Positions 25,735-64,000 of a stretch of 64,000 nucleotides of DNA are shown piece after piece. Numbering within the stretch: the first letter of the stretch is position 1; every line of letters starts with the position of its first letter. The translations under genes and the position numbers were made by a program. The stretch comes from Eubacteriales bacterium. Lineage in GTDB: Bacteria; Bacillota; Clostridia; Oscillospirales; Oscillospiraceae. The DNA is taken from NCBI GenBank assembly GCA_030536515.1, contig JAUNPV010000005.1, forward strand, positions 62,001 to 126,000, read 5' to 3'. The notes under the pieces are model-generated. The model did no database searches, was not told the DNA's origin, and saw nothing but the letters and a program-made list of their open reading frames with translations.

Positions 25735-25900
25735 CCGTAGGGCGGCCTGGAAATTATGGTGTGATTGCCACCGGCAATCAGATCAGTTTGATCTGCTGCG
25801 CAGTGCACCACCCTCAGGCCGCCGTCGGCGCAAGCCGCAAAGCCGGTGCAGATACAAAGATGCAACGCAGCGGCGGCCTGGGGGCAGGCCGCCCTACAGG
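25735..25900. repeat. CGTAGGG-family palindromic repeat (family C) with inner variable part
   Basis: It starts CCGTAGGGCGGCCTGG and ends AGGCCGCCCTACAGG. Inside are further short palindromes (GATTGCC and GGCAATC; GCAGCGGCGGCCTGGGGGC). It occupies the leuS-rpsU space up to the rpsU promoter. Confidence 0.8.
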
Positions 25901-30625: not shown

Positions 30626-30835
30626 ACCGTAGGGCGGCCTGCCCCCAGGCCGCCGCTGGCTGACGACACATGAGTGGTCCTGGCGACGCACCCAAAACCT
30701 TCTCCCCACAAGGGGGACGCCGCAGCCCCCGGGGGAAGGTTTTGACGCACCACCGTAGGGGCGGGTTATTAACCCGCCCGTCGGCCCCCAACCAGGGGGC
30801 CGCAACCGGCTTTCCACCCGGAAAGCCGGTTCATT
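30626..30835. repeat. Nested palindromic repeats (family C and others)
   Basis: A family C unit CCGTAGGGCGGCCTGCCCCC is followed by CCTTCTCCCC ... GGGGGAAGG and then by a second CCGTAGGGGCGGG with GTTATTAACCCGCCC. The units are inserted in each other and fill the space between the methyltransferase remnant and the minus-strand gene. Confidence 0.75.
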
Positions 30836-31375: not shown

Positions 31376-31577
31376 ATATTCTGCTGACACAGAAAGTGAA
31401 ATGTGGGCTGACACCCACGTAAAATATTGTTTTGCAAAGTGAAATGAAATTTGCCCTCACGTGCCGCAGCACATTTCACACGCCGAAGGCGTATTTCACG
31501 CTGCGTTCGCAGCATTTCACTTGCCCAAAGGGCAAATTTCACTGAAAAAAGCGCATTGCAGAAGCAATGCGCTTTTT
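31376..31577. repeat. Array of small hairpins separated by ATTTCAC
   Basis: From 31472 the unit ATTTCAC recurs four times. Between the copies lie three different perfect palindromes: ACGCCGAAGGCGT, GCTGCGTTCGCAGC and TTGCCCAAAGGGCAA. Inverted GTGAAAT copies and the palindromes TTCTGCTGACACAGAA and GTGGGCTGACACCCAC lie on the left side. The array ends with a strong terminator-like stem, AAAAAGCGCATTGC against GCAATGCGCTTTTT (31546-31577). No protein-coding sequence is evident. Confidence 0.75.
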
Positions 31578-47797: not shown

Positions 47798-49954
47798 TCA
47801 GCATTGGCTGCTGCTCTGGACCTCGGGGCACAGCCCCTCCTCCCGCAGCACGGCGTAAAAGGCCCGTTCCAGCTCCGGCTCCCGGATGTTCCGGATGAAA
47901 TTGATGGACAGCATCCCGCCGTAGGACAGCACGCCGCAGTTGTGGGGGGCCTTGGCCTGGGGGCCGATGATGAAATCAAACCGGGTGACATAGCCCTCCA
48001 TGGCCTCGGGGACCTGAACCCTGCCCAGATTGGACAGGCTCAGGCAGGACTTTCGCTCGCCCACCGCGTCAAAAACCGCCTTCATGGCCACGTTTTTCAC
48101 AAACAGCGGCATGATTTTCAAAATCAGACTCCGCTCGCTGTTGACGTTGGTGGCGATGCGGGCGCTCATCTGCTTGGGGTTGACGTCATAGCCCAGCTTG
48201 TGGTGGACAATGGCGCAGATTTCCTCCAGGGTGTAATCCCCCAGCTTGGGGTCGATGCCCGGGGAGGAATAGAGGGCGAAGTTCCGCAGGGTCCGGCTGG
48301 GAAACAGCCGCCGCAGGTCCACGGGAATCAGCACCTTCAGCGCCCGCCGACGGCGGCGGAAGGGGACCTTCTCCCGCTGAAGAGTTTGCAGCGCCTGGAG
48401 CATCACGGCGCACAGGTACTCCGTCAGGCTGACCTGGCGGGCGTGGGCCTTTTCCAGCACCTCCGCCGCAGAAATCCGGAAGCAGGTCAGGTCCAGCACT
48501 CCCTCGGGCTCGGGGGTGCCGCTCAGCCGCCAGGCGTTGGCCTCGGCCCGGCTGGCGCTGATGTCCCCGGCGTATTTGAGAAAGCTGTCCTCAAATTCAT
48601 CCGCCGAAGGCGCCTCCAACCGGCCCAGCACCCCCAGCTCCGGGGGCACGGCCACCCGGTATTTTTGCAGCAGATACTCGGCCAGCAGGGTTTTCAGAAA
48701 AATCAGCCCGCCGTTTCCGTCGGTGATGGCGTGGAAAAACTCCACGGCCACCCGCTTTTTGTACACAATCACCCGCAGGGCGCACCGGCGGATTTCCTCC
48801 AGGGTCATCCGGGTGAGGGGATAGCTGCTTTCCGGCCGCAGGGCCGGGGCCTGGGGGACCTGCTCCAGATAATACCAGAACACCCCCCGCCGCAGCCGCA
48901 CCGCCATGGAGGGAAACCGCCGCACGGTCACATCCAGCGCCGACTGCATGACCTGGGGGTCGATGTCCTCCACCAGGTCGGCGGAGAGGCGGAAGATGTT
49001 GCTCCAGCTGCGCCGGAGGGCGGCGGGGTAGATTTTCGCCGCATTGTCCAGTCGCATCCATTTCAGCTTCCGCTGGGGGCCCAGGAACTTGTCCAGAAAG
49101 CCGTTGACGGTGTCAAAATCCCCCTGGTTTTCGTTGAGGTCATAGAGCACATAGGCGTGCCACCGCTCCGGGGCCACAATCATCTGGCTGCGGCAGCCGG
49201 CCTTCAGCAGCTTCTCGTGAAGCATTCGGGTGTCGTCCAGCATGATTTCATCCCCGCCCACAAAGAAAAGGGAGGGGGGAAGCCCCTGCAGCTCGCCGAA
49301 CAGCGGGGACACCAGCGGGTCCCGGAGGTCGCCTGCATAGCACTGGGCGTAAAAGCCCAGCAGGGAAGCGGTCATGGTGGGGTCGATGTTCCGGTTGGTT
49401 TCGTAGGAATCCCCGGAGGCCGTCAAATCGGTCCAGGGGGAAATGGCAATGACCCCGGCGGGCAGAGGCAGCCCCAGCTCCTTCAAACGCAGGCACAGGC
49501 TGTAGCACAGGCCGCCGCCGGCGCTTTCGCCGCACAGGACAATCCGGCCGTAGCCCTTGTCCAGCAGATAACGGTAGGCAGTGAGGGCATCGTCCAGGGC
49601 GGCGGGATACCGGTGCTCCGGGGCCAGCCGGTAGGCGGCGCAGAACACCCGGAGGCCGCAGCGCACGGCCAGGGTGGAGGCGAAGCCCTTGGCGTATTCC
49701 AAATCGCCGCAGGTGTAGCCCCCGCCGTGGAGGTACAGCAGCACCCCCTGCCGCCGCTCGTCCATGGGCGTAATCCAGGCCCCCTGGAACGTTTCAAAAG
49801 GGTGGACCTTCACCAGCACCTCCCGGCGGTGGTGGGCCTCCATCAGCTCGCCCAGCTTATCCTGGCCCTTGCGGCTGGCCTCCAGAGAGCAGCCGCAGAT
49901 CAGGGGCTTCAAAATCCCCAGCTGCGCCCGAACCATTTTCGCAGGCAGCCCCAT
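47798..49954 (-). CDS. Fused alpha/beta hydrolase and condensation-type (alcohol) acyltransferase
   Basis: This is a 718-residue protein starting at ATG 49954 behind AAGGAGGGATTGCCG. Residues 1-~290 are a hormone-sensitive-lipase-type hydrolase: oxyanion 'HGGGY' at 76-80, nucleophile Ser144 in 'GESAGG', then 'GGDEIMLDDT' and 'ERWHAYVLY' for Asp and His. From ~300 on is a fold of the alcohol acetyltransferase / condensation group, with 'FFHAITDGNGG' matching HxxxDG. One half may cut and the other form acyl esters, so it could remodel a lipid or move an acyl group. Usually these are separate genes. It has its own promoter at 49983-50011. Confidence 0.88.
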   Translation of the reverse strand: MGLPAKMVRAQLGILKPLICGCSLEASRKGQDKLGELMEAHHRREVLVKVHPFETFQGAWITPMDERRQGVLLYLHGGGYTCGDLEYAKGFASTLAVRCGLRVFCAAYRLAPEHRYPAALDDALTAYRYLLDKGYGRIVLCGESAGGGLCYSLCLRLKELGLPLPAGVIAISPWTDLTASGDSYETNRNIDPTMTASLLGFYAQCYAGDLRDPLVSPLFGELQGLPPSLFFVGGDEIMLDDTRMLHEKLLKAGCRSQMIVAPERWHAYVLYDLNENQGDFDTVNGFLDKFLGPQRKLKWMRLDNAAKIYPAALRRSWSNIFRLSADLVEDIDPQVMQSALDVTVRRFPSMAVRLRRGVFWYYLEQVPQAPALRPESSYPLTRMTLEEIRRCALRVIVYKKRVAVEFFHAITDGNGGLIFLKTLLAEYLLQKYRVAVPPELGVLGRLEAPSADEFEDSFLKYAGDISASRAEANAWRLSGTPEPEGVLDLTCFRISAAEVLEKAHARQVSLTEYLCAVMLQALQTLQREKVPFRRRRRALKVLIPVDLRRLFPSRTLRNFALYSSPGIDPKLGDYTLEEICAIVHHKLGYDVNPKQMSARIATNVNSERSLILKIMPLFVKNVAMKAVFDAVGERKSCLSLSNLGRVQVPEAMEGYVTRFDFIIGPQAKAPHNCGVLSYGGMLSINFIRNIREPELERAFYAVLREEGLCPEVQSSSQC

Positions 49955-49982
49955 CGGCAATCCCTCCTTGCAGTTTTTCCCC

Positions 49983-50011
49983 ATTATATCATGGCAGCCC
50001 GGGGTTGTAAA
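49983..50011 (-). promoter_or_regulatory. Promoter of the hydrolase-acyltransferase gene
   Basis: On the minus strand TTTACA (50011-50006), a 17-base spacer ending TGA, and TATAAT (49988-49983). It is independent of the invertible promoter further right. Confidence 0.87.
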
Positions 50012-50031
50012 GTAACAAGCCCATCCCAAAC

Positions 50032-50063
50032 AAAAAACCGGAAGCCCAGCGGAAGGCTTCCGG
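50032..50063 (-). terminator. Intrinsic terminator left of the invertible segment
   Basis: On the minus strand CCGGAAGCC pairs with GGCTTCCGG over 8 bases and is followed by TTTTTTG. It lies between the invertible promoter and the hydrolase gene and should stop transcripts leaving the segment leftward. Confidence 0.85.
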
Positions 50064-50099
50064 ATTATTTCTGTTTATCAGACCCCAGCCGGGCCGATA

Positions 50100-50121
50100 T
50101 TTCGCAGAGTAGGCCCCTCTG
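50100..50121 (+). repeat. Left inverted repeat of a probable invertible segment
   Basis: This 22-base sequence starts TTTCGCAGAGTAGGCC. Its exact reverse complement stands at 51529-51550. The two enclose 1407 bases carrying the recombinase gene. Confidence 0.85.
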
Positions 50122-50151
50122 CGTCAGGCTGCGCTCATCTATACATTAGCG

Positions 50152-50180
50152 ATTATACATCCTTTTCCTGGAAAAAGCAA
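50152..50180 (-). promoter_or_regulatory. Outward-facing promoter inside the invertible segment
   Basis: On the minus strand TTGCTT (50180-50175) and perfect TATAAT (50157-50152) are 17 bases apart. Transcription would begin near 50145 and cross the left inverted repeat. In the present orientation it meets the terminator at 50063-50032. After inversion it would map to 51470-51498 and read right into the TetR-SipW-TasA operon. Confidence 0.75.
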
Positions 50181-50331
50181 GGGGTAAACGAAAATAAAGG
50201 CTTTTTTTCGGAGGGCGGTCCCGGTTTTTTCAGAATTCGCCGCTATGCTGTATATGGGAAGGCCGGGGCGGGCTGCTTCCGCAGTCAAATCCGCAGTCCT
50301 TCTACAGTTCTTAAAGGGAGGAACCATCCAA

Positions 50332-51444
50332 ATGGCGAAAGGCGAAAACATTTTCAAACGGAAGGACGGCCGCTGGGAGGCCCGCTACATCAAGGGCCGG
50401 GAGCTCTCCGGCAAAATCAAATACGGGTTCTGCTACGGCAAAACCTACACCCAGGCCAAGGAAAAGGTCACCCTGGCCAGGGCCGCCCTGCTCAGCGGAG
50501 GCCCCGGCCCCTCCGCCGCAGGCCGCCACCGGTTTGCATTTTTCTGCGACCAGTGGCTTCAGGCCGGGCGGGGCCGGTTCAAGGAGGCCACCTGCGTCAA
50601 ATACCAGACCGTGCTGGACCGGCACATCAAGCCCAGGCTGGGGAGCTGCTATCCCCTGGCGTTCTGCGATGAGCTGGTGGCGGGGTTTACGGGGGAGCTG
50701 CTGGCCCAGGCACTGGCCCCCAAAACCGTCAAGGACATTCTGGTGGTGCTGCGCTCCATTCTCAACTACACCGCCAAGCAGTTCCCGGGGACCTTCCCCC
50801 GGGTGGACATCCCCTACCCCAGGGAGGGGAAACGGGAAATGCGGGTGCTGACCCGGGAGGAGCAGGGGGCCTTTGTGGGCTTTCTGCTGGCGGACCTGGA
50901 CGAATGCAGATTCGGCATTCTCCTGGCCCTGCTGACGGGCATCCGGATTGGGGAGCTGTGCGCCCTGCGCTGGGAGAATATCTCCCTGGACGACAATACT
51001 TTGAAAATCACAGCCACCATGCAGCGTCTGGCAGACAGCAGCCCCCACCGGACGGCAAAGACAAAAATCCTCATCGGCCCGCCCAAAAGCGGCACCTCCG
51101 CCCGGACGATTCCCCTCAGCGACGATGCCGCCGCCCTTTGCAGGCGGATGCAGCCCGGAAGCCCGGAGGCCTATGTTTTGACGGGCACTGCGGCGTATAT
51201 GGAGCCCCGGGCCCTGCAATACCGGCTGTCCCGCTATACCGCCAGCTGCGGCCTGGAGGGGGTCCACTTTCACACCCTGCGGCACACCTTCGCCACCCGC
51301 TGTGTGGAGGTGGGCTTTGAAATCAAGTCGCTCAGCGAAATCCTGGGCCACGCCAGCACCACCATCACCCTGGAGCGCTACGTCCACGCCTCCATGGAGC
51401 TGAAACGGGACAACATGAACAAGCTGACCATGGTGGGGCTGTGA
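50332..51444 (+). CDS. Tyrosine recombinase inside an inverted-repeat-bounded segment
   Basis: This is a 370-residue protein. ATG 50332 follows AAAGGGAGGAACC. The N-terminal ~60 residues (KGENIFKRKDGRWEARYI) are the arm-binding AP2-like domain of Tn916/phage-type integrases; ~80-170 is the core-binding helix domain. The catalytic part shows Arg in 'LLTGIRIGELCALRW', His-x-x-Arg in 'HTLRHTFATR', His in 'LGHASTTITL' and the nucleophile Tyr in 'LERYVHAS'. No excisionase, phage or conjugation genes accompany it. Its position between perfect inverted repeats points to a DNA invertase acting on its own segment. Confidence 0.95.
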   Translation: MAKGENIFKRKDGRWEARYIKGRELSGKIKYGFCYGKTYTQAKEKVTLARAALLSGGPGPSAAGRHRFAFFCDQWLQAGRGRFKEATCVKYQTVLDRHIKPRLGSCYPLAFCDELVAGFTGELLAQALAPKTVKDILVVLRSILNYTAKQFPGTFPRVDIPYPREGKREMRVLTREEQGAFVGFLLADLDECRFGILLALLTGIRIGELCALRWENISLDDNTLKITATMQRLADSSPHRTAKTKILIGPPKSGTSARTIPLSDDAAALCRRMQPGSPEAYVLTGTAAYMEPRALQYRLSRYTASCGLEGVHFHTLRHTFATRCVEVGFEIKSLSEILGHASTTITLERYVHASMELKRDNMNKLTMVGL

Positions 51445-51528
51445 TTTTCCGCAGTCAAGGTTTTGTGTCATTTCCCCGTGGGCCGGGAAAAGGGGCAGCG
51501 CCTGCAAGGCATTTTCCCCTGCCTTTGA

Positions 51529-51550
51529 CAGAGGGGCCTACTCTGCGAAA
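51529..51550 (-). repeat. Right inverted repeat of a probable invertible segment
   Basis: This is the exact reverse complement of 50100-50121. It stands 70 bases before the TetR gene. A weak hairpin GGGCCG/CGGCTT followed by ATTTTTTC lies at 51565-51588 between it and that gene and could temper read-through. Confidence 0.85.
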
Positions 51551-51619
51551 GGTGCCTGCTTTCGGGGCCGTTGGCGGCTTATTTTTTCAAAACACTGTAG
51601 CGAATGCCCACAGGAAAGG

Positions 51620-52249
51620 ATGAACGAACCGTTGACCCAGGACAAGCGACACGCTCTGCTGTGCAGTGCCGTGCGGGCGGTGGCCCGCTATGGCATGAAG
51701 GACGTGAGCACCCGCCGCATCAGCGCCGATGCCGGCGTGAACGATGCTTACATCTACCGTTACTTTCAGGACAAGGAGGACCTGCTGGTCCAGGCCTTTC
51801 TGCTGGAAAATCAGCAGTTCATGGCCCAGGCCATCAAGCAGATTGACCAGGTCCGGCAGTCTGCTCCCCGGGAGTCCCTGGATAAGCGGTTTGAAACCGT
51901 GTTTTACGCCGCCTGGCGGTATCTGCTGGACAGGCCGGAGGTGTGCCGGTTCTTCCTTTACTACTATCTCTCGCCCAACTTTGCCCAGCACGCCCGGGCA
52001 CCCTACCGCCGTCAGCTGGATGAGCTGGCGGAGAAGGTCCGCCCCCTGTTTGCCAGCGGGGAGGAGGCCAAGCAGAGCCTGTATGCCCTGTTTGTGCTGC
52101 TGAATGCCTTTGCCGTTCAGGTGCTGAACGGCGAGCAGCCGGACACCCCGGAAACCGGGCGGCGGGTCCTGCAAATGACCTTCGCCGCCGTCCGCTCCCA
52201 AATGGGCCCGGAAAATACCACTGGAAAGGCAGCGTCCCAGCCGCTGTGA
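51620..52249 (+). CDS. TetR family transcriptional regulator
   Basis: This is a 209-residue protein. ATG 51620 follows GGAAAGG. The N-terminal helix-turn-helix reads 'AVARYGMKDVSTRRISADAG' then 'VNDAYIYRYFQDKEDLLVQA', the TetR signature at about 20-60. The rest is a helical ligand and dimer domain without strong similarity I can name. It is the first gene of the SipW-TasA operon, so it likely controls surface-fibre expression, perhaps on top of the inversion switch. I see no convincing promoter between the right inverted repeat and this gene in the present orientation. Confidence 0.93.
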   Translation: MNEPLTQDKRHALLCSAVRAVARYGMKDVSTRRISADAGVNDAYIYRYFQDKEDLLVQAFLLENQQFMAQAIKQIDQVRQSAPRESLDKRFETVFYAAWRYLLDRPEVCRFFLYYYLSPNFAQHARAPYRRQLDELAEKVRPLFASGEEAKQSLYALFVLLNAFAVQVLNGEQPDTPETGRRVLQMTFAAVRSQMGPENTTGKAASQPL

Positions 52250-52264
52250 TGCAGGAAAGAGAAC

Positions 52265-52819
52265 ATGGGAAAAGCAAAGAAGATTTTCAACATCATCACC
52301 AGCATCCTGGTGGCCCTGGCGGTGGTTCTGGCCATTGCGCTGGCGGGGGTCCGGCTTGTGGGGCTTCGGGTGTTCACGGTGCTCTCCGGCTCCATGGAGC
52401 CGGCCTACCACGTGGGCTCCCTGATTTACGTCCGGAAGGTGGACTATCAATCCCTCCGGCCCGGGGATGTCATCACCTTCATGCTGGATGAGGACACCGT
52501 GGCCACCCACCGGATTGTGGCCGTGGTCCCGGATGAGGAGGACCCCTCCGTCCTGCGCTACCGCACCAAGGGCGACGCCAACGACACCGAGGACGGCTCC
52601 CTGGTCCATTATAAAAACGTCATCGGCACGCCGGTGTTCACCATCGCCAAGCTGGGCTACCTGGCAAGCTATATCCAGAATCCCCCCGGCACCTATGTTG
52701 CCATCAGCGTGGGCGCAGTGCTTCTGCTTCTGATGTTCCTGCCGGATTTGCTGTTCGAGGACAAGAAGGAAGAACAGCAGAAGCCCTCCCGCCGGAAAAA
52801 AGGCAAATTCGAGCGCTGA
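52265..52819 (+). CDS. sipW: SipW-type (ER-type) signal peptidase I
   Basis: This is a 184-residue membrane protein with an N-terminal and a C-terminal membrane segment. The catalytic Ser is in 'VLSGSMEPAYHVGSL', and the general base is His in 'TVATHRIVAVV' instead of Lys; this Ser-His arrangement defines the SipW/ER type. 'YRTKGDANDTEDGSLV' is the third conserved box. It cleaves the special signal peptides of TasA- and camelysin-like proteins, four of which are encoded directly downstream. ATG 52265 follows AGGAAAGAGAAC. Confidence 0.95.
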   Translation: MGKAKKIFNIITSILVALAVVLAIALAGVRLVGLRVFTVLSGSMEPAYHVGSLIYVRKVDYQSLRPGDVITFMLDEDTVATHRIVAVVPDEEDPSVLRYRTKGDANDTEDGSLVHYKNVIGTPVFTIAKLGYLASYIQNPPGTYVAISVGAVLLLLMFLPDLLFEDKKEEQQKPSRRKKGKFER

Positions 52820-52907
52820 AAAGCCCCCGGCTCCGGGGCAAACCACAGGGTTACGCCGAAAGGCTCCCGAAATAAATGAGTTTCCAAAAATGTAAGGAGG
52901 AAATTTT

Positions 52908-53486
52908 ATGAAAAGAACACTCGCACTGCTCCTGGCCTTCGTCCTGGTAATCGGCGCAACGGTTGCTGGTACTTTGGCCTACCTGACCGACACCTCTAAG
53001 GAAGTTAAAAATACCTTTACTATCGGAAAAGTTGGTATTGACTTGCACGAAACTGAAGTAGGTAGTGACACTATTTCTTATGGCAACACCTACGCCTTGA
53101 TTCCTGGTACTACTTATGAAAAGGACCCCGTTGTCAGTGTTGACGAGGGTAGTGAGGACTGCTACCTGTTCGTCAAATTTATCGGACCCGACCCCAAACC
53201 CGAATGGCTGGACTACACTACTACCCTTGATAGCACAAATGGATGGACTCCGGTTGCTGGAGAAACAAATGTGTGGTATCGTGAAGTCAACAAGACGGAT
53301 ACGACTCGTTCCTGGAAACTTCTTGTGGATGACGAAGTCACCGTAACCGACCAATTGACTCAGGATAATATGCCTGCTGCTAATGCTACACCGACTCTGA
53401 CTTTCACCGCATATGCTTGCCAGAGGGCTAACTTGAGTGTAACTGAGGCCTGGGCCCAAGTGAAGGACCTTGATCCCGAAGCCTAA
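52908..53486 (+). CDS. TasA/camelysin-like SipW-dependent secreted protein
   Basis: This is a 192-residue protein. ATG 52908 follows AAGGAGGAAATTTT. The signal 'MKRTLALLLAFVLVIGATVA' ends in 'GTLAYLTDTSKE', the SipW cleavage region. The mature part begins with 'NTFTIGKVGIDLHETEVG' and is all-beta, with many Thr, Asp and Val, as in TasA fibre subunits. Only two Cys occur (CYLF, CQRA). It is likely exported and assembles at the surface. Codons are far less GC-biased than those of sipW, suggesting strong expression or recent transfer. Confidence 0.88.
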   Translation: MKRTLALLLAFVLVIGATVAGTLAYLTDTSKEVKNTFTIGKVGIDLHETEVGSDTISYGNTYALIPGTTYEKDPVVSVDEGSEDCYLFVKFIGPDPKPEWLDYTTTLDSTNGWTPVAGETNVWYREVNKTDTTRSWKLLVDDEVTVTDQLTQDNMPAANATPTLTFTAYACQRANLSVTEAWAQVKDLDPEA

Positions 53487-53536: not shown

Positions 53537-54160
53537 ATGAAAAAGAAAATCCTGGCCCTGTGCCTGGTCGTTGCCCTGGCTGCAACCGCAGTCATTGGCG
53601 GCACCCTGGCATACTTCACCGACACTGATAATAAGATCAACACCTTTACTGTTGGCAATCTCGACATTGCACTGAATGAGGATGAGTGGGTTGCAGATAA
53701 TGCAAAGGACATTACCCCTGGTACCTCCGTTCCCAAGAATCCTGTTGTCGTTGTTGTTGCTAACAGCGTTGACTCCTATGTCCGTGTGACGGTTAAGATG
53801 CCTAGCTTTGTCTATGATGCATCCGATTTCTTCCACGATAATGAGTCTGCCATGGTTAACTTCGCAGGCCAGTCCACTGATTTTGAAGTTGTTGGTGACC
53901 CTATTGTTGCTGACGGTTTCACCACTGTTGTCCTCAAGTATAAAGCAGCAGTTCCCAGTGCTACGACCGACACTGAACTGCCCGCTATCTTCACCTCTGT
54001 GGATTTCAGTGCAAGCATCACCCAGGGTGATGACCTGTATAAGTCCATGGCTGCTGCTAAATGGGATGTTGTTGTGACTGCCTATGCCGTTCAGGCAGAT
54101 AATACCGAAAGCGAGTCTAAGGCCTTCACGACTGCCTTTGACAAGATTTTCTCTGAGTAA
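53537..54160 (+). CDS. TasA/camelysin-like SipW-dependent secreted protein
   Basis: This is a 207-residue protein starting at ATG 53537 behind AAAGGAGC. The signal 'MKKKILALCLVVALAATAVI' leads to 'GGTLAYFTDTDNKINTFTVG', the same cleavage box as its neighbours. 'DITPGTSVPKNPVVVVVANS' matches the conserved first strand pair of TasA and CalY, where the N-terminal strand of one subunit is thought to complete the next. It has no cysteine after the signal peptide. It is the likeliest main fibre subunit by length, codon use and ribosome site strength; that is inference. Confidence 0.88.
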   Translation: MKKKILALCLVVALAATAVIGGTLAYFTDTDNKINTFTVGNLDIALNEDEWVADNAKDITPGTSVPKNPVVVVVANSVDSYVRVTVKMPSFVYDASDFFHDNESAMVNFAGQSTDFEVVGDPIVADGFTTVVLKYKAAVPSATTDTELPAIFTSVDFSASITQGDDLYKSMAAAKWDVVVTAYAVQADNTESESKAFTTAFDKIFSE

Positions 54161-54298: not shown

Positions 54299-54862
54299 AT
54301 GAAAAGAAGACTGTTTGCAGCAGCCGTGCTGGTTTTGTGCCTGTCCCTGCTGGCCGGCGGGACCCTGGCGTATTTTACCGCCGAGGACACCGCCCGCAAC
54401 GTCATAACCACCGGCGATATCAGCATCCGGCTCCAGGAGTGGGCCGATGCGGAGAAAACCACCCCCTTCCCCCAGGGCGGCGTCAGCGGCGTCATGCCCG
54501 GCACTGAGGTCACCAAAATCGTCGAGGTCAAAAACGCCGGCGCCAACGAGGCCTATGTCCGGGTCAAGGTGGACAAGTCCCTGACCCTGGCCAAGGGCGT
54601 GGAGGGCAAGCCGGACCTTGGCCTGCTGGTCATCGACTTTGCCGACGACAACTGGACCGCAAAGGACGGATTCTACTATTATAACAAGCCCCTGAAGCCC
54701 GGCGCTGTGACGGAGCCGCTGTTTGCCTCCGTCAGCTTTGACGCCTCTATGGGCAACATCTATCAGAACAGCACCGCTTCTGTGGATGTCAAGGCCTATG
54801 CCGTTCAGGTGGCCAACAACGGAAGCAGTCCCCTGGAAGCCAAGGGCTGGCCCGAACCGTAA
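54299..54862 (+). CDS. SipW-dependent TasA-like secreted protein
   Basis: This is a 187-residue protein. ATG 54299 follows AGAGGTGAAGCCA. Signal 'MKRRLFAAAVLVLCLSLLAG' and 'GTLAYFTAEDTARN' show the SipW cleavage box. 'VMPGTEVTKIVEVKNAGANE' and 'AYVRVKVDKSLTL' are the beta-strand blocks seen in camelysin. It is GC-rich, unlike the two preceding subunits, so it may have been in the locus longer. It is likely a minor or capping subunit of the fibre, an inference from its distance to the other two. Confidence 0.87.
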   Translation: MKRRLFAAAVLVLCLSLLAGGTLAYFTAEDTARNVITTGDISIRLQEWADAEKTTPFPQGGVSGVMPGTEVTKIVEVKNAGANEAYVRVKVDKSLTLAKGVEGKPDLGLLVIDFADDNWTAKDGFYYYNKPLKPGAVTEPLFASVSFDASMGNIYQNSTASVDVKAYAVQVANNGSSPLEAKGWPEP

Positions 54863-54874
54863 GGAGGTAGCCAT

Positions 54875-55903
54875 ATGAAAAAACTGAAAGTCGTGGCGCT
54901 GGTGCTGTGTCTGGCGGTGCTTATCTCCGTCTGGACCCCCGGTACCCTGGCCACCCAGACGGACACCGCCGAAACCCGGACCCCCACCTGCGGCCAGACC
55001 GCTCACGTCCACACCGACGCTTGCTATACCCGCAGCGAAACCCCGGTCTGCGACCAGCCGGGCCACGTCCATACCGATGCCTGCTATGAGGTAAAGACGG
55101 TCTGCACCCTTCCCGAGGATGAGACCCACACCCATGTGGATGCCTGCAATGAGAAAACCCTCACCTGCCAGGAGCCCCAGGGCCACAACCACACCGATGC
55201 GTGCTATAAGAAGCTCACCTGCAACCTCTCCGAGCACACCCACACCGACAGCTGCTACCCCGCCCCGGCGACCGCCCCCACCCAGCCCGCCTGCACCTGC
55301 GGCGAGGCACTGAAAGAGGAAAACGGGGAAAAGCTCCACCTGGACGGCTGCCCCGCCAAGCCCACCCAGCCCACCTGCATCTGCAAGACCAATGAGGACG
55401 GCACCAAAACCTACGTAGAGGGCTGCCCCGTCTGCGAAAAACCCGCCGAAACCACAGACCCAACCACCGCCCCCACGGAAACCACGGAAGTGACCACCCC
55501 CACCTGCACCTGCGGCACAACCGACGGCACCCACACCGAAACCTGCCCTCTGTTTAAACCCACCGCCGACCCCATCACCCACCTGGAAACCTGCCAGGAG
55601 GGCTGCACCGGCGAAAATTGCCTGTGCCCTTGCCATGAGCTGAGCCTGTTTGAACGGCTGATGGCCTGTGAAACGCTGGATGAGCTGTTTACTATTGTGG
55701 ACACTACACCGGAGGATGAGCTGATGGCTCTGACAGATGAGGAAAATGCAGAAATCGAGGCGAAAATTACTGCCCTTGAGGGTGAGCCGCTGCCTCCGGT
55801 GGTGCTCGAAGAATGTGTGAATGAGTCTGTAATCAGTGAAATCATTTATCCTGCGGTCAATTTCGATAATGTTGCGCCCTTTGGTGCACCTGTCGAAGGA
55901 TGA
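54875..55903 (+). CDS. Secreted protein with Cys/His 'HTHTDACY' repeats
   Basis: This is a 342-residue protein starting at ATG 54875 behind AAGGAGGTAGCC. An N-terminal signal peptide is clear. Residues ~35-130 hold five repeats built on 'HVHTDACY' (variants HVDAC, HNHTDACY, HTHTDSCY), each with a Cys about ten residues before. Three longer Cys blocks (CTCGEALK, CICKTNEDG, CTCGTTDG) and a Thr/Pro linker follow, then 'CQEGCTGENCLCPCHELSLF'. The pattern suggests metal-binding or disulfide-linked surface modules; no known catalytic motif is seen. The last ~80 residues are acidic and AT-rich in DNA. It sits between fibre genes. Confidence 0.82.
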   Translation: MKKLKVVALVLCLAVLISVWTPGTLATQTDTAETRTPTCGQTAHVHTDACYTRSETPVCDQPGHVHTDACYEVKTVCTLPEDETHTHVDACNEKTLTCQEPQGHNHTDACYKKLTCNLSEHTHTDSCYPAPATAPTQPACTCGEALKEENGEKLHLDGCPAKPTQPTCICKTNEDGTKTYVEGCPVCEKPAETTDPTTAPTETTEVTTPTCTCGTTDGTHTETCPLFKPTADPITHLETCQEGCTGENCLCPCHELSLFERLMACETLDELFTIVDTTPEDELMALTDEENAEIEAKITALEGEPLPPVVLEECVNESVISEIIYPAVNFDNVAPFGAPVEG

Positions 55904-55920: not shown

Positions 55921-58860
55921 ATGAAGAAATCGAAGGCGATATCTCTGCTCCTGGCCCTGTCGCTGCTGCTGTCCCTGGCCGTTCCCGGTACCCTGGCTCT
56001 CCCTGTCCGGGCAGCCGATGAACCTCAAACGGAGGGTATGGTCATCAGCAAAACCGCCAAAGCAGACGGCGAGGGCCGCTACACCATCACCCTGGAAGCC
56101 TATGCCACAGGCGATAAAATCATCACGGAAACCACAAAAGATGTCCCCACAGATATCATTCTGGTGCTTGATCAGTCCGGCTCAATGGGTGACTCCATGT
56201 CCTCTGAGAAGGCTTATTCGGCTTATGAAGACAGAAGTAACGAATACCTTCATTACAGGCGATTCAACAAGGGAGACGAAAACCTGTATTACCCGGTTGA
56301 TGGCGGATATGTGCAAGTTCAGGTTGACCAAACTAGGGTCAATCGCTATGAGTCACTCAACAATAGTACACAAAATTACTATTACAACTATTACTATCAG
56401 AATGGAAACAATCTATACATCAAAGTCGCTGACGGACAATATCAGAATGTAACGGTTAGCGTGTCCGGAAGTTTATTTGGGGGTTATACCTATACTTATT
56501 CTGTCAATGGAACGCAGATTGCTCAGAGTGACGGTCTCACAAGTACACCGGACTTTGGAGACTATGGCCCCATCTATCAGGCTGTGCAGGTTTACCAGTA
56601 CACCTACTATTATCAGTTGCGAAACCAGAATCGTGTTGTCATCGAAACTTCCCTTGGTGAGGATACCGTTCCTAATAAAACCTATTATCAGTACGGAACG
56701 GTCAATACTTCCCGTTTGGAAGCATTGGAATCTGCGGTTACAACCTTCGCAAACAGCGTTGCTGCGAAAGCCGCCGGACCGGACGGTATCCTGGGCAATG
56801 AAGATGATGTAAACCATCGTGTTGCCGTGGTCGGGTTTGCAAGTCCTGATTCAAATACAGAACTTCTGTCTATACGCAATAATCGTGGCGGAATTGGTGT
56901 GAGTTATAATAGTATAACCTCACAGAACCTTGTTGATGTGCTCCAGAATATGGACACCCAACAGGGCCAGACAATGGTTGATAATGCGATTAGCACCTTG
57001 GATGCCAATGGCGCGACGCGGGCCGATCTTGGTATGGATATGGCCAACCGGATTCTGAATGCCAATCCTGTACCTGAAGGCGAAAGGAGAGCCAGAGTCG
57101 TTGTGTTCTTCACCGATGGTTCTCCGACATCTTCTCGTTATTTTAGTGAAGAAGTAGCTAGTGCAGCAATCACCAACGCATCCAGCATTAAAGCTGGCGG
57201 TGCAGTTGTGTACTCTGTCGGCGTTTTCCCTGGCGCTGATGCAACCTCTAACGGTATTGCTCAGGACAACAATAGCCACCGTGAGAATCAGTTTATGCAG
57301 AGTGTGTCCTCTAACAACGGCTCCCCTAAGAATCCAAGCTACTATCTTTCTGCTTCGGATGCAGGCACGCTGAACAGCATCTTCCAGCAGATTTCCGACC
57401 AAATCCAGCAGGGCGGTTCTGCTACGACACTGGATGAGAATACTGTCATTAAAGACATTATCGCTCCCGCCTTTGAACTTCCCCAGGGTGCTGGCGTTTC
57501 TGATATCACCTTGGAAACCTACAGCTATGTAGGCGAAAACAGGTGGGAAGAAAACCCCGACTCCATGGGTGCAGAGGCCACTGTGAATGGAGACAAGGTC
57601 AATGTGACCGGGTTTGATTTTGCTGAAAACTACGTTGGCACGGTCAAGCAGAACGACACAGTGACCTACCGTGGCGATAAGCTGGTCATTTCCTTCACGG
57701 TCACCCCCAAGGCCGGCTTCCTGGGCGGCAACAACGTCTACACCAACACCGATGCCGGCGTTTACAAGGATAAGGATTCCACTGAAGCGGTTTTGACATT
57801 TAACAGACCCCAGGTCAATGTGCCCATCAAGGATATCACCGTCACCGCCCAAGACAAAAACGTCTACCTCCTAGGCAGCCTCACCGCCGACCAGCTCAAA
57901 TCCGGCGCAACCGCCAAGGTGGGGGATGTGGAACTGGACCTGACCAAGCCCGACGAAAACTACGGCTTGGCAGCCTGGCAGACCGAGTATGTGGATATCA
58001 CTGTTTCCTATCTGAACAGCAAGGATGAAGCAATTACGGATTATCAGAACCTTGACCAAGACCAAGTCTACAAGGTGGTTGTCACGGTAAAGCCAAAGTC
58101 TGAGGCTAGTGCTACTTCCAGTGGGACAGCCGCTGAAGAACAGTCTGGCAACGATGAAGCAGCTATCAACGTCTTTAAGCCCGAGCTGACCTACAAGGAC
58201 GGCGAGGTTTACTACGGTGATACGGTTCCCACCGACTTCATCGAAAACCTCAGAGACACCAAGTGGAAGCACAACGAGGTTTCGGCGAATACATCTACCA
58301 TGGGTGCTGCGCCTGTGTTGATAATTGATTACACGCCGGACCCCTCCAAAGTTACAGATGGTAAAATCAATACCAAACAGGATGTGATGGTGAATGCCTC
58401 CGTAAAGATTGGCGATAAGGTTGTCACGGATGACACTACATTTGTCCACACGGCCTGCCCCGGCACGGATTGTGGTTGGACAAACCCCGAGAACGGAGGC
58501 ACCCCCGCCTTCCTCCTCCACGTCAAGACCTGCCAGCTGACCGTCATCAAGTCCGGCGGCGCAGACAATGAACCCTATGTGTTCACCGTGAAGAAGGACG
58601 ACCAGAAGTATACCGAGGTCACCATCGTCGGCAACCAGAGCAAAACCATCTACGAGCTGCCCGTTGGTAATTACACCATCGAAGAAGACACCGGCTGGAG
58701 CTGGCGGTATAACCCCACCTATGCTGATAATTCCGCAAGCCTGTCTTCTAAGAATCCCAAGGGAAATATCACCTGCACAAATACCCCGGAGAATCCCTAC
58801 TGGCTCAACGGCTACAGTGGAGTTAAAACAAATGTATCCGGCGCTAGCGGAACAAAATAA
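55921..58860 (+). CDS. Large von Willebrand factor A-domain surface protein
   Basis: This is a 979-residue protein. ATG 55921 follows GAGGGAGGAGGC. Signal peptide 1-~32. The VWA domain starts at ~75 with the MIDAS 'DQSGS' (Asp84, Ser86, Ser88). A Tyr- and Asn-rich stretch of about 165 residues is inserted before the first helix 'SRLEALESAVTTFANSVAAK'. 'GATRADLGMDMA' and 'VVFFTDGSPTSS' complete the metal site. Beta-rich modules follow, and near 880 a Cna-B-like unit ('CQLTVIKSGG', 'YELPVGNYTIEED'). There is no LPxTG or membrane tail. It is probably the tip adhesin of the surface structure. The middle of the gene is AT-richer than its ends. Confidence 0.9.
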   Translation: MKKSKAISLLLALSLLLSLAVPGTLALPVRAADEPQTEGMVISKTAKADGEGRYTITLEAYATGDKIITETTKDVPTDIILVLDQSGSMGDSMSSEKAYSAYEDRSNEYLHYRRFNKGDENLYYPVDGGYVQVQVDQTRVNRYESLNNSTQNYYYNYYYQNGNNLYIKVADGQYQNVTVSVSGSLFGGYTYTYSVNGTQIAQSDGLTSTPDFGDYGPIYQAVQVYQYTYYYQLRNQNRVVIETSLGEDTVPNKTYYQYGTVNTSRLEALESAVTTFANSVAAKAAGPDGILGNEDDVNHRVAVVGFASPDSNTELLSIRNNRGGIGVSYNSITSQNLVDVLQNMDTQQGQTMVDNAISTLDANGATRADLGMDMANRILNANPVPEGERRARVVVFFTDGSPTSSRYFSEEVASAAITNASSIKAGGAVVYSVGVFPGADATSNGIAQDNNSHRENQFMQSVSSNNGSPKNPSYYLSASDAGTLNSIFQQISDQIQQGGSATTLDENTVIKDIIAPAFELPQGAGVSDITLETYSYVGENRWEENPDSMGAEATVNGDKVNVTGFDFAENYVGTVKQNDTVTYRGDKLVISFTVTPKAGFLGGNNVYTNTDAGVYKDKDSTEAVLTFNRPQVNVPIKDITVTAQDKNVYLLGSLTADQLKSGATAKVGDVELDLTKPDENYGLAAWQTEYVDITVSYLNSKDEAITDYQNLDQDQVYKVVVTVKPKSEASATSSGTAAEEQSGNDEAAINVFKPELTYKDGEVYYGDTVPTDFIENLRDTKWKHNEVSANTSTMGAAPVLIIDYTPDPSKVTDGKINTKQDVMVNASVKIGDKVVTDDTTFVHTACPGTDCGWTNPENGGTPAFLLHVKTCQLTVIKSGGADNEPYVFTVKKDDQKYTEVTIVGNQSKTIYELPVGNYTIEEDTGWSWRYNPTYADNSASLSSKNPKGNITCTNTPENPYWLNGYSGVKTNVSGASGTK

Positions 58861-58875
58861 GGGAGGAGGAGAATC

Positions 58876-59466
58876 ATGTATCACGGAAAATATCAACCCA
58901 TGCGTCCCAGACGCAGACACTATCGAAAAGCCGGTACCCTGCTCCTCTCCTGTCTGCTCCTGCTCACCCTGGCCATCGGCGGCACCCTGGCCTACCTGAC
59001 CACCGACACCGCCCCCGTGGAAAACAGCTTCACCCCCGCCAAGGTCGATTGCACGGTAACGGAAGAGTTTAACGGCACCACCAAATCCAACGTCAACGTC
59101 ACCAACACCGGCAATATCAACGCCTACCTCCGTGTAAAGCTGGTCACCTACCGGGTCAATGACGAGGGCCAGCACATCGGCGGAACGGCTGAGATTCCTA
59201 GCTTTACGCCCGGTGATGGTTGGAAACCGCTTAACGGCTATTACTACTACACGAAGCCGGTTGCACCCGGCGATAAGCCTGCATCTGATTTGATTAGCAG
59301 TATCAATCTAACTGGTTCTTACGACGATGCAGACGGCGGCAAACAGGTGATTGAAGTCATGGCAGAGGCCATTCAGGCCGACGGAACGAACGCCGAGGGC
59401 AAGACACCTTGTGAAATTGCCTGGGGCGTTAAAATCGAGAGTGGCACAGTCACTTCCGTCGCTTAA
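58876..59466 (+). CDS. SipW-dependent TasA-like secreted protein
   Basis: This is a 196-residue protein starting at ATG 58876 behind GGGAGGAGGAG. It has a long basic N-region (MRPRRRHYRKAG) before the hydrophobic core 'LLLSCLLLLTLAIG' and the cleavage box 'GGTLAYLTTDTAPV'. The mature part has 'NVNVTNTGNINAYLRVKLVT' and a Tyr run 'LNGYYYYTKPVAPGDKP'. It is the fourth SipW-type substrate and the only one behind the VWA gene, so it may link the adhesin to the fibre. The 15-base gap fits co-transcription. Confidence 0.87.
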   Translation: MYHGKYQPMRPRRRHYRKAGTLLLSCLLLLTLAIGGTLAYLTTDTAPVENSFTPAKVDCTVTEEFNGTTKSNVNVTNTGNINAYLRVKLVTYRVNDEGQHIGGTAEIPSFTPGDGWKPLNGYYYYTKPVAPGDKPASDLISSINLTGSYDDADGGKQVIEVMAEAIQADGTNAEGKTPCEIAWGVKIESGTVTSVA

Positions 59467-59478
59467 GGAGGTACGGAT

Positions 59479-60117
59479 ATGAAAAAATTGATTTCCTTCC
59501 TTCTTGCGCTGACGGTGGTTCTTAGCCTCAGCCTCACCGCCTATGCCGACGAAATCGGCCAGGTGGTCTATTCCAAAAAGGCCTTCTCCTTCCTCCCCGG
59601 CTTCGACCAGGGCAGCCTGTCCTACCCCGATGACCTGTTCCCGGAGCTGAAAAACGTCATGCCCGGCGATGTGCTTCACCAGCAGGTGAAAATCACCCAC
59701 AAGGCCGGCCGTGGCATCAACATCCGGGTCTACATCAAGGCCGAGGGCAGCGACCTCAACCCCGAGTTCATCCGCCAGATGAACCTCCAGGTAGAGCACA
59801 AGGGCGGCGACATCCTCTACGAGGGCGACGACTATAACGCCGCCGAAAAGAGCGGCTGGATTAAGCTGGCCACCCTGGCCCCCGGCAAGTCCACCACCCT
59901 GGATTTGACCCTCACCGTGCCCATCGACATGGGCAATGAGTTCGCCGACACCCTGGGCACCGTGGTCTGGAAGTTCAAGGTGGAGGAGGTCCCCATCGAC
60001 CCCACCAACGCCAAAACCGGCGACACCAGCGCCATCGCCGCCTGGACCGCCGTCCTGACCCTCAGCGCCGCCGCCCTGGCCGTGCTGCTAATCAGGAAGC
60101 GCAGAAAAGCATCATAA
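59479..60117 (+). CDS. Membrane-anchored surface protein with sortase-like tail
   Basis: This is a 212-residue protein. ATG 59479 follows AAGGAGGTACGG. An ordinary signal peptide (MKKLISFLLALTVVLSLSLT, cleaved after AYA) is followed by a beta domain with 'NVMPGDVLHQQVKITHKAGR'. The C-terminus has 'NAKTGDTS', then a hydrophobic helix and the basic stop 'RKRRKAS', the layout of a sortase sorting signal with a non-standard pentapeptide. No sortase gene is in the window. It may tie the fibre to the cell wall or membrane, the role TapA plays elsewhere. It ends the operon at a strong terminator. Confidence 0.86.
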   Translation: MKKLISFLLALTVVLSLSLTAYADEIGQVVYSKKAFSFLPGFDQGSLSYPDDLFPELKNVMPGDVLHQQVKITHKAGRGINIRVYIKAEGSDLNPEFIRQMNLQVEHKGGDILYEGDDYNAAEKSGWIKLATLAPGKSTTLDLTLTVPIDMGNEFADTLGTVVWKFKVEEVPIDPTNAKTGDTSAIAAWTAVLTLSAAALAVLLIRKRRKAS

Positions 60118-60993: not shown

Positions 60994-61045
60994 GGCTGGG
61001 CAGGAGAGCAACAAATTTTGCCAATGTCAACAACAACGGCAATGC

Positions 61046-64000
61046 ATTTCAATCCACGCTCCCTGTGAGGGGGAGCGACAGGGCGACACCCAGGAGACAT
61101 TGATGCAGGCCCTATTTCAATCCACGCTCCCCGTGGGGGGAGCGACAATAGTCTCGTATCACCCACTCGTCAAATTCATCATTTCAATCCACGCTCCCCC
61201 TGGGGGAGCGACCTGTGAGAACCGGTGCATATACCACAAAGCCAGAATTTCAATCCACGCTCCCCGTGAGGGGAGCGACAATATTAGAAAAACAGATACA
61301 GCAAGAAAGGAATATTTCAATCCACGCTCCCCGTGAGGGGAGCGACCTGCAAATGGTGGCAAATCATATAGTAGCATTTATATTTCAATCCACGCTCCCC
61401 GTGAGGGGAGCGACAGTGCCCAGACAAGGCCGCCAACGAAAAAGAAAAATTTCAATCCACGCTCCCCGTGAGGGGAGCGACGATGCCGTTATTGCCCCAG
61501 CCGCAGAATACGAACAATTTCAATCCACGCTCCCCGTGAGGGGAGCGACAAAGCTCTGGAAAAAGCCGCCGAGGCCTTCAATCAATTTCAATCCACGCTC
61601 CCCGTGAGGGGAGCGACTTGCGGCCCGCATGGTATCCCCTTCCAGGGTTCCATTTCAATCCACGCTCCCCGTGAGGGGAGCGACTTGGGGTGTATGCAGA
61701 CATGGCGGTTTCCGGCATATTTCAATCCACGCTCCCCGTGAGGGGAGCGACCCAGTGCTTTTAAATCTTTCTCAAAAGCATTTGAATTTCAATCCACGCT
61801 CCCCCTGGGGGGAGCGACTCCTTCTCCCCACCGAAGCACCGGCAGGGATGGTATTTCAATCCACGCTCCCCCTGGGGGGAGCGACAATAGCCTGGTCAGA
61901 TATGGCGGCGAGGTAGTCGATTTCAATCCACGCTCCCCCTGGGGGGAGCGACCTTATGCGTATTCTGGAGAAGTCCGTGGAATTGATTTCAATCCACGCT
62001 CCCCGTGAGGGGAGCGACCCCAATATTTCGTCACCTTGACCCTGGACCCGGAATTTCAATCCACGCTCCCCGTGAGGGGAGCGACTGAACTTTGCCCGGT
62101 GTCAGCACCGTCTGTGTTATTTCAATCCACGCTCCCCGTGAGGGGAGCGACATATCCCCGGCAGCAAGCTGTTGGTGATACACACATTTCAATCCACGCT
62201 CCCCGTGAGGGGAGCGACGTCCTGTCCGATCTGTGCAAGCACACCGAAGGTGAATTTCAATCCACGCTCCCCGTGAGGGGAGCGACTTCCGTTACACCCA
62301 AAAAGCTGGAGGCGGGACAAATTTCAATCCACGCTCCCCGTGAGGGGAGCGACAATGAATCCTGATTACATCATTGGTACAGACAAGCCATTTCAATCCA
62401 CGCTCCCCGTGAGGGGAGCGACCCGGCCAGTATTCCACAACCGGCGGCGGTACGCCATTTCAATCCACGCTCCCCGTGAGGGGAGCGACATTGCCGGTAC
62501 CGCCATGGCCGGGCAGTTTGCCGGATTTCAATCCACGCTCCCCGTGAGGGGAGCGACCTATCAGGTGGTTGACGGCCATCTTGAAATTGATATTTCAATC
62601 CACGCTCCCCGTGAGGGGAGCGACTGCAGGGAAGCAGCCTCACACATGACGAGGATAAATTTCAATCCACGCTCCCCGTGAGGGGAGCGACTCCTACCGT
62701 TTTTGCATTCCGAAACGGACTATCATTTCAATCCACGCTCCCCGTGAGGGGAGCGACTGCCAATTCCAGCGGCGAGTTTCAGACTGTCCGTATTTCAATC
62801 CACGCTCCCCGTGAGGGGAGCGACTCTTAACTCACTTTACGCCGTGGACAGCGGTCTATTTCAATCCACGCTCCCCGTGAGGGGAGCGACCCCATCCGCC
62901 ATCGTTCTTTAGTCCATCACCACCCATTTCAATCCACGCTCCCCGTGAGGGGAGCGACACGCCATTCCACCCGGCAGCATAAGCCCTGTCTATTTCAATC
63001 CACGCTCCCCGTGAGGGGAGCGACGCTTCCGGGCCACCTCCCGCTGGGCACGGGGAATATTTCAATCCACGCTCCCCGTGAGGGGAGCGACAACCTCCCG
63101 TCAAGTCCACCAAATGTACTTATACATTTCAATCCACGCTCCCCGTGAGGGGAGCGACGTATGAGGACGGAACAAACACAACCGAGGACAGTATTTCAAT
63201 CCACGCTCCCCGTGAGGGGAGCGACTCAACAATCGCATTACCTCATACAAGAGGCTGTATTTCAATCCACGCTCCCCGTGAGGGGAGCGACGCAGCCACG
63301 CCCCTGTTATATATCAAAATGCGCTATTTCAATCCACGCTCCCCGTGAGGGGAGCGACAGGGAGGAACACCAAAAATCAATAAGGAGGAAAATTTCAATC
63401 CACGCTCCCCGTGAGGGGAGCGACTGATGTGTGCAGTAATAAGGCACCAAAGCAAGACATTTCAATCCACGCTCCCCGTGAGGGGAGCGACGACCGAGTA
63501 CGTGGACGCCGACGCCGTGGACAGCATTTCAATCCACGCTCCCCGTGAGGGGAGCGACTAAACATTTCCTTTTTTATTTTCTTTAATTAGAATTTCAATC
63601 CACGCTCCCCGTGAGGGGAGCGACCGCCTCTTATATGGTACTAGCTTTAAGGCTCCATATTTCAATCCACGCTCCCCGTGAGGGGAGCGACTGTAAGGTT
63701 TGTAATTAACTTTATCATAGTCTAAATATTTCAATCCACGCTCCCCGTGAGGGGAGCGACGATATGATTGTATTATGTGGTCTGGTAAGTATAATTTCAG
63801 TCCACGCTCCCCGTGAGGGGAGCGACCAATACAAAAGTTTCCTTTTGCAAATACATTTTTATTTCAATCCACGCTCCCCGTGAGGGGAGCGACAAATTTA
63901 CAGAGGGAGGAACCAAAATGAGTGAAATTTCAATCCACGCTCCCCGTGAGGGGAGCGACATATACGTTGATTTATCGGACCCAGAATCAATAAATTTCAA
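61046..64000 (-). CRISPR. Type I-C-like CRISPR array, at least 44 repeats, continuing past the window
   Basis: A 33-base repeat recurs 44 times in full plus a cut copy at 63994-64000. Read on the minus strand it begins GTCGCTCCCCTCACGGGG and ends GTGGATTGAAAT, with a palindromic core; this is the type I-C kind and the end GAAAT sets the crRNA direction. Spacers number 44 and are 33-36 bases. The three leftmost repeats (61046, 61114, 61181) and three at 61786-61952 differ in the core (for example CCCTGGGGGG), and the copy at 63794 has one change (TTTCAGTCC). The degenerate end should be leader-distal, so leader and cas genes lie right of the window. Confidence 0.97.

Follow-up and report, generated by a model that had tools for sequence, protein, structure and literature searches.

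A candidate self-contained phase-variation cassette beside a SipW/TasA-type operon in an Oscillospiraceae genome

Results

Anatomy of the segment

We analyzed a 64,000-nt stretch of the genome of a Eubacteriales bacterium (Oscillospiraceae; contig JAUNPV010000005.1, positions 62,001 to 126,000; hereafter the window), in which a tyrosine recombinase gene lies between short inverted repeats, with a promoter-like sequence just inside the left repeat and, beyond the right one, a co-directional run of genes for a TetR regulator, a SipW-type signal peptidase, secreted proteins, a von Willebrand factor A protein and others. The 22-nt repeats, at 50100-50121 and 51529-51550, are 100% complementary and 1407 nt apart, and they bound a candidate invertible segment of 1451 bp (50100-51550) in which the recombinase gene is the sole plausible gene. 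Only two copies of the repeat are present in the 2.63-Mb genome, even with up to three mismatches allowed. Among the perfect inverted repeats of window positions 1-60900 with 300-5000 bp between starts, the pair ranks second in length, and the longest inverted repeat in 20 Markov surrogates of the window was 17 nt, compared with the 22 nt observed. Genome uniqueness and the surrogate maximum together rule out a chance origin, and the presence of only two genome copies rules out a dispersed-repeat artefact. The longest perfect inverted repeat of positions 1-60900 is a GC-rich, recombinase-free pair of 30 nt (25868-25897 and 30629-30658), which looks like a dispersed small repeat and not like a switch.

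The 22-bp repeat makes up most of a 27-bp core site with a 10-7-10 dyad. The left core site (50100..50126, plus strand), which consists of the repeat and the remainder of the dyad, reads TTTCGCAGAG-TAGGCCC-CTCTGCGTCA, while the right core site (51524..51550, minus strand) reads TTTCGCAGAG-TAGGCCC-CTCTGTCAAA, with the same spacer in inverted orientation. The dyad is shorter at the right site than at the left, and the bases immediately outside the two repeats differ (CGGGCCGATA and GGTGCCTGCT).

The gene between the core sites (50332..51444, plus strand) encodes a protein of 370 aa that matches PF14659 and PF00589, the latter at an E value of 1e-23, as expected of a tyrosine recombinase. Its nearest solved relatives are the Int proteins 6EN0, 6EMY and 6EMZ; a profile of its family matched the solved Int proteins 6EMY, 6EMZ and 6EN0-6EN2, which we take to be the Tn1549 integrase, at an E value of 4.9e-33, and the single sequence did so at 5.1e-12. 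The reading frame is intact, and the window recombinase carries R205, H314, R317, H340 and Y350, presumably the catalytic residues, which are invariant across 51 family members. Arm-type sites are expected for the Tn1549/Tn916 group of integrases, and two pairs of arm-type motifs flank the gene on the plus strand: GCAGTCA and GCAGTCC, 12 bp apart, on the left (50281..50299), which the recombinase is predicted to bind, and GCAGTCA and TGTGTCA, 13 bp apart, on the right (51451..51470, at 51451 and 51464).

The promoter-like sequence, TTGCTT-17-TATAAT, lies on the minus strand at 50152..50180 and faces outward, to the left; inversion of the segment would place it on the plus strand at 51470-51498. 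Its score was 18.7, compared with 14.4 for the best inward-facing candidate. Such a score was reached in 16 of 580 strand tiles of 210 bp and so is not rare by itself, for which reason the weight of this promoter rests on its conservation in relatives. Within its spacer, at 50163-50175, is the palindrome TTTTCCTGGAAAA, a possible operator, for instance for the TetR protein. Outside the left repeat, an intrinsic terminator (50038..50063, minus strand; -19.4 kcal/mol, z -4.3) faces the outward transcription, and beyond it a consensus scan placed a promoter-like site for the leftward neighbour gene (TTTACA-17-TATAAT, 49983..50011, minus strand). On the right, the same kind of scan over 49900-53000 found no plus-strand promoter ahead of the operon, and the best promoter score in 51551-52290 was 15.8, compared with 18.7 for the switch promoter.

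These features agree with the original prediction for this DNA, which had described perfect 22-bp inverted repeats around one tyrosine recombinase gene, an outward TTGCTT/TATAAT promoter with a spacing of 17 inside the left repeat, and an operon without a promoter of its own. It had further stated that the promoter runs into a terminator at 50063-50032, which holds for the terminator and its direction, though we give the extent as 50063-50038, and that inversion would put the promoter at 51470-51498, which is correct, about 115 bases before the operon, where we find 121 bp to the TetR ATG at 51620.

A family of related cassettes

We searched the 119 genomes around that of the window, and 113 had matches at E values of at most 0.001, a count that takes in ordinary integrases. 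Sixteen loci, among the better matches (62% down to about 33% identity, some of them fragments), were extracted with their flanks. A scan of named-species genomes added the best 80 of 570 relatives. By title, the relatives were mostly metagenome-assembled genomes of Clostridia, with isolates that included Blautia parvula, Schaedlerella arabinosiphila and Butyricicoccus pullicaecorum. The 80 named-species loci, the 16 neighbour-genome loci and the window made up 97 loci, of which two (L100 and L122) were lost at contig edges. At a threshold of an inverted repeat score of at least 16 around the gene, inverted repeats flanked the recombinase in 66/95 loci, the window included, compared with 5/95 in a direct-repeat control; a wider search located repeats further out in L069 and L128. 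Three near-identical loci (L109, L110 and L111) were counted as three here and in the promoter and spacer counts.

Other tyrosine recombinases, taken as a control, had inverted repeats in 2 of 23 cases, one of them a member of the family itself (L021, also counted as L050) and the other (L030) a gene between inverted SLH-gene copies. Among recombinases on viral contigs with at most 32% identity we found inverted repeats in 0/18, a set that omits the weak or partial L171, L182 and L188 and in which one flank is short for some loci; viral-contig relatives with at least 39% identity had them in 3/9 and plasmid-borne relatives in 6/7. The 2/23 and 0/18 controls make it unlikely that the window holds an ordinary integrase with incidental repeats.

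Several of these loci are worth describing in their own right. In L030 (G115:C96), the recombinase, 33% identical, is enclosed by long inverted repeats that by eye apparently contain parts of two SLH-type genes, an arrangement that suggests alternate expression of two surface genes. On megaplasmids of Enterococcus raffinosus (L191) and E. gilvus (L193), 35% relatives lie inside inverted repeats, and the cassettes precede a helix-turn-helix gene with SecA2/SecY2 genes and a WxL-protein operon. Three E. raffinosus plasmids (L189-L191) share a distant-relative locus in one orientation, and the flanks of a fourth plasmid (L192) did not match those of the three.

When sigma-70-like promoters were scored between the left repeat and the gene, the outward candidate exceeded the inward one in 66/66 repeat-flanked loci, window included. 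Median scores were 19.95 outward, 16.25 inward and about 16.7 for shuffles; the outward promoter reached p<0.05 in 59 of the 66 loci (40 shuffles each), and in 44/66 the -10 box ended 23-37 bp from the repeat.

Arm-type motifs were counted over 72 loci, with congeneric loci added and duplicates dropped. On the 5' side of the gene, up to the left repeat, 46/72 loci had a pair of GTCA motifs 10-13 bp apart on the recombinase strand (shuffle maximum 2), and 55/72 had one on the 3' side, from the stop codon to the right repeat (shuffle maximum 3); the opposite strand gave 1/72 on either side. The left pair of the window falls outside the 46 because its second motif, at 50293, reads GTCC. We interpret the GTCA motifs as putative arm-type sites of a Tn916/Tn1549-like integrase, the pairs of which would be bound by the N-terminal domain of the recombinase, a predicted arm-binding domain on the evidence of protein sequence and motifs.

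The core sites share a lox-like geometry across the family, with an arm TTTCGCAGAG, a 7-bp spacer and an arm CTCTGCGAAA. The arms are conserved across 62 of the 66 loci, and those 62 loci have 56 distinct spacers (L113, L121, L132 and L136 were dropped from the spacer averages for low core scores, while L130 was misplaced but kept). Spacer agreement per position was 0.97-0.98 within a locus compared with 0.25-0.36 between loci (five middle positions), the within-locus value being inflated because the 66 loci had been selected for repeat identity; when the two ends of a locus are compared, most arm positions agree less than the spacer positions do. In genomes with two repeat-flanked cassettes, the spacers differed in all six pairs compared, by 1 to 6 of 7 bases, one pair including a recombinase with an in-frame stop (L056). 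A spacer that is shared by the two partners, asymmetric and in inverted order is what site-specific inversion requires.

Orientation of homologous loci

Loci L070 and L071, from one genus, have recombinases that are 99% identical and segments that are 97.2% identical; when these segments are aligned in one orientation, a flank of about 9 kb with an SLH-protein gene (96-98.5% identity) lies on opposite ends of the two; the L071 contig ends 2 bp past the repeat. In two more genomes of that genus (L156 and L157), both flanks are exchanged around an 84.9% identical segment, such that the right flank of one is the reversed left flank of its partner (75.4% over 1261 bp); the remaining two flanks correspond in the same way (77.5% over 191 bp). 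Weaker, one-sided exchanges were seen for L113 or L135 against L127, L078 or L080 against L152, and L065 against L146. Both orientations of what appears to be one locus are seen between congeneric relatives, and not in the window's own species; a search of the genus of the closest locus, L057, gave only its own genome. In 18 of the 80 named-species loci the recombinase lay no more than 700 bp from a contig end, compared with 6.3 expected, an excess of the kind that mixed orientations would cause, though repeats could do so too.

Genes beside the cassette

Seven further loci have SipW/TasA-type genes next to the cassette; L052, in which the recombinase is a stop-containing fragment next to a SipW relative, is not among them. 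In five of the seven the orientation is as in the window, with these genes on the right (OFF) side (L057, whose recombinase is 77% identical to that of the window, L060, L079, L043 and L050), and in two (L045 and L061) they are on the left (ON) side, which the promoter faces. L060, L059 and L044 have a TetR relative next to the cassette, and in L059 and L044 no SipW gene was found within the available flanking stretch. On the recombinase tree, the SipW neighbourhood requires three changes, two of them forced by well-supported branches, and the pairing is therefore clustered but not confined to a single lineage.

We ran Pfam on 20 of the 38 first right-side open reading frames, which at loci with a left-side target need not be targets, and obtained a match for 13/20 and none for 7/20. 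The matches were to SLH, the Listeria-Bacteroides repeat (two), a pilin-type N-methylation motif, sortase (below cut-off), TadZ, TetR, HTH_3, protein kinase, histidine kinase, a GTPase-type domain, helicase and epimerase. The three near-identical loci mentioned above, from Butyricicoccus pullicaecorum (L109), Blautia glucerasea (L110) and Agathobaculum massiliense (L111), represent a near-identical element with a family cassette, in which an Erm(B)-like methyltransferase gene lies 449 bp past the terminator-side repeat, with the promoter facing away; the sequence preceding the methyltransferase gene matches plasmid regions annotated as erm(B) leaders.

As one family sits beside many different genes, its cassettes must have moved in evolution. 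This diversity of neighbours, together with the relationship of the recombinase to the 6EMY-6EN2 Int proteins and the arm-type motifs that flank the gene, could also mean that the window segment is a miniature mobile element that inserted by chance upstream of the operon, its repeats being transposition ends and not parts of a switch. We regard this as most improbable, given that the dyads of the core sites enclose an asymmetric spacer, inverted between the two ends, that the outward promoter is conserved, that homologous loci are flipped in place with both flanks exchanged, and that the bases just outside the window's repeats do not match.

In the window, the putative target operon begins on the plus strand with a TetR-family regulator (51620..52249) and a SipW-type signal peptidase I (52265..52819; TIGR02228 above cut-off, and the SipW model NF046067 at an E value of 2.7e-31, below cut-off). 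Three SipW-dependent-type secreted proteins follow on the same strand, the first (52908..53486) with TIGR04088 above cut-off and the second (53537..54160) and third (54299..54862) Peptidase_M73/camelysin-like; the TIGR04088 SipW-dependent signal is above cut-off in three operon proteins. Further along the plus strand are a secreted-looking 342-aa protein with no match in Pfam or NCBIfam (54875..55903), a large secreted-looking protein with a von Willebrand factor A domain (55921..58860), a BsaA-family-like SipW-dependent protein (58876..59466; TIGR04090, below cut-off) and a 212-aa protein (59479..60117) whose C-terminal hydrophobic stretch and basic tail, read by eye, make it a possible surface anchor. 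Elsewhere in the window, we noted a Gut-1 RNA (RF01706, 75.5 bits) on the minus strand at 31468-31544 and, at about 61000-64000, regular repeat units in the translated open reading frames (FQSTLPVRGAT / SIHAPREGSD), which by eye look like a CRISPR array.

A proposed switch and its alternatives

We consider the segment 50100-51550 to be a self-contained phase-variation cassette that is OFF in this assembly, a reading drawn from sequence comparison to which we give a probability of roughly 0.83. In the proposed mechanism, the tyrosine recombinase would bind the two inverted lox-like core sites, assisted by the arm-type motifs on both sides of its gene, and would invert the segment; since the two spacers match but face opposite ways, the product would be inversion and not excision. 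As the segment now lies, the promoter would fire outward to the left and be stopped by the terminator at 50063-50038 (OFF), and after inversion it would lie upstream of the TetR-SipW-TasA-type genes and transcribe them (ON). The window copy probably inverts, through its own recombinase alone, and the switch promoter is probably active, with the operon depending on it. The self-contained promoter inversion put forward in the original prediction is strongly supported by the related loci, through the direction of the promoter in all 66, the spacers, the flipped homologues and the SipW/TasA pairing.

A number of observations weigh against this reading. Inverted repeats at the threshold were lacking in 29/95 loci, some of which end at a contig edge and a few of which fall just short, while others remain without; and in L102 and L119 the two repeats, 412 and 183 bp apart respectively, lie to one side of the gene and do not enclose it, so that both layouts occur in one recombinase family. 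Homologous flanks in the same orientation were commoner than exchanged ones (18 of 21 pairs, six of them from the L109-L111 triple). In two of the relatives with a SipW gene (L050 and L061), other genes intervene between the cassette and sipW. The window genome was assembled in one orientation only. The ON state would be dampened by a hairpin at 51565-51590, between the right repeat and the TetR gene, that has a T run and resembles a weak terminator. In addition, the window lacks a clear terminator behind the recombinase gene and inside the right repeat, so that transcripts of the recombinase could continue into the operon when the switch is OFF.

This last observation, with the recombinase and the operon being co-directional at present, gives rise to the alternative that the segment does invert but that read-through from the recombinase expresses the operon now, making ON and OFF reversed or graded. 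We think this unlikely. No good promoter leads into the recombinase, the inward candidate scoring below the outward one in the window and in every repeat-flanked relative, and terminators recur in the family. Counted over 71 or 72 of the 72 arm-motif loci with one shuffle per locus, an intrinsic terminator facing the outgoing promoter lay within 150 bp outside the promoter-side repeat in 34/71 loci (shuffles 5/71), which means that in about half of the deposited copies the promoter faces a terminator as it does in the window. Behind the recombinase stop and before the right repeat, 24/71 loci had a terminator (two in shuffles), the window not among them, and 14/71 had one outside the other repeat (four in shuffles), the window hairpin at 51565 among them. 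The rule is not a clean one, as L070 has matches outside both repeats and L149 has one on the target side.

The single assembled orientation, along with the shorter dyad of the right core site, would also be expected of a decayed or locked switch, in which a cassette that formerly inverted no longer does so in the window copy. We judge this decidedly unlikely, since the recombinase frame is intact and the residues invariant in 51 members are present, the 22 bp are identical at both ends, and relatives too have sites whose inner arm is imperfect, at one end or at both (for example L059, L079 and L083).

Discussion

Beyond the candidate phase-variation cassette of the window, we lean, if narrowly, toward a wider picture of a portable switch cassette of about 1.5 kb, common to Clostridia and a few other bacteria, that derives from a domesticated Tn1549/Tn916-type integrase and comprises the recombinase, arm sites, lox-like cores, an outward promoter and often a terminator. 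Its neighbours would be operons of the SipW/TasA type, genes for S-layer and repeat proteins, pilus-type genes and regulators. With arms that are conserved and spacers that are private, several cassettes could coexist in a genome without cross-recombination, and strand exchange would keep paired spacers identical. The private spacers amount to a testable prediction on how parallel switches in one genome avoid cross-talk. The combination of an RKDGRWE-type recombinase, CGCAGAG-N7-CTCTGCG ends, GTCA arm pairs and an outward promoter provides a signature by which self-contained phase switches could be recognized in uncultured gut Clostridia, and the family ties switching to SipW-dependent and S-layer genes in these bacteria. 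We conjecture that screens tuned to short promoter-only segments may under-count gene-holding segments of 1.5 kb.

The recombinase family is related by sequence to the solved Int proteins of the Tn1549/Tn916 group. The window segment differs from the conjugative transposons Tn916 and Tn1549 in having no visible excisionase or transfer genes and in that the cassette's sites are inverted, because of which the outcome would be inversion. The operon represents the same kind of secretion system as the tapA-sipW-tasA biofilm operon of Bacillus but is not its equivalog, as the matches to the Bacillus SipW and TasA equivalog models were below cut-off (NF046067, 108.6 bits against 190; NF046066, 19.7 bits against 450).

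Among invertible segments, the Salmonella Hin/hix flagellar switch likewise has both recombinase and promoter inside the segment. That segment carries the promoter for a surface-structure operon, and its recombinase, Hin, is of the serine type and works with an enhancer bound by Fis, whereas the window has a tyrosine recombinase, lox-like cores and arm-type motifs. The E. coli fimS switch with FimB and FimE, and other tyrosine invertons, likewise combine a tyrosine recombinase, short inverted repeats, promoter inversion and a surface target, but the window recombinase lies inside a 1451-bp segment and not outside a short promoter-only one. The excerpted text of one source (PMC5903667) places the recombinase gene within the Hin segment, gives the fim switch as about 300 bp with a promoter only, and describes a recombinase open reading frame enclosed in an 844-bp invertible segment of Providencia stuartii close to a fimbrial locus; this segment, likened here by its description in that excerpt, differs in being gammaproteobacterial and in having 14-bp imperfect repeats. 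Inversions in Clostridia are known from genome-wide screens. In the excerpted text of PMC11892184, hCom2 inverton group 139 holds 33 invertons, 32 from Clostridia, and is linked to tyrosine-type invertase group 35; because its two example segments span 255-257 bp, the recombinase would lie near and not inside them, a comparison with the window cassette that goes by the description in that text. In the titles and abstract beginnings of the open-access literature, a scope that leaves key subscription papers outside, we found no inversion switch for a SipW/TasA operon, and on recombinases inside their own segment or tyrosine-recombinase switches of Clostridia, PMC5903667 was the relevant report. 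The original prediction that a segment carrying both invertase and promoter for such an operon is undescribed hence stands for the SipW/TasA switch within that literature, and does not stand for the layout. As switches with the recombinase inside the segment are already known from Hin and Providencia, what appears new is a cassette of this kind built on a recombinase related to the Tn1549 Int.

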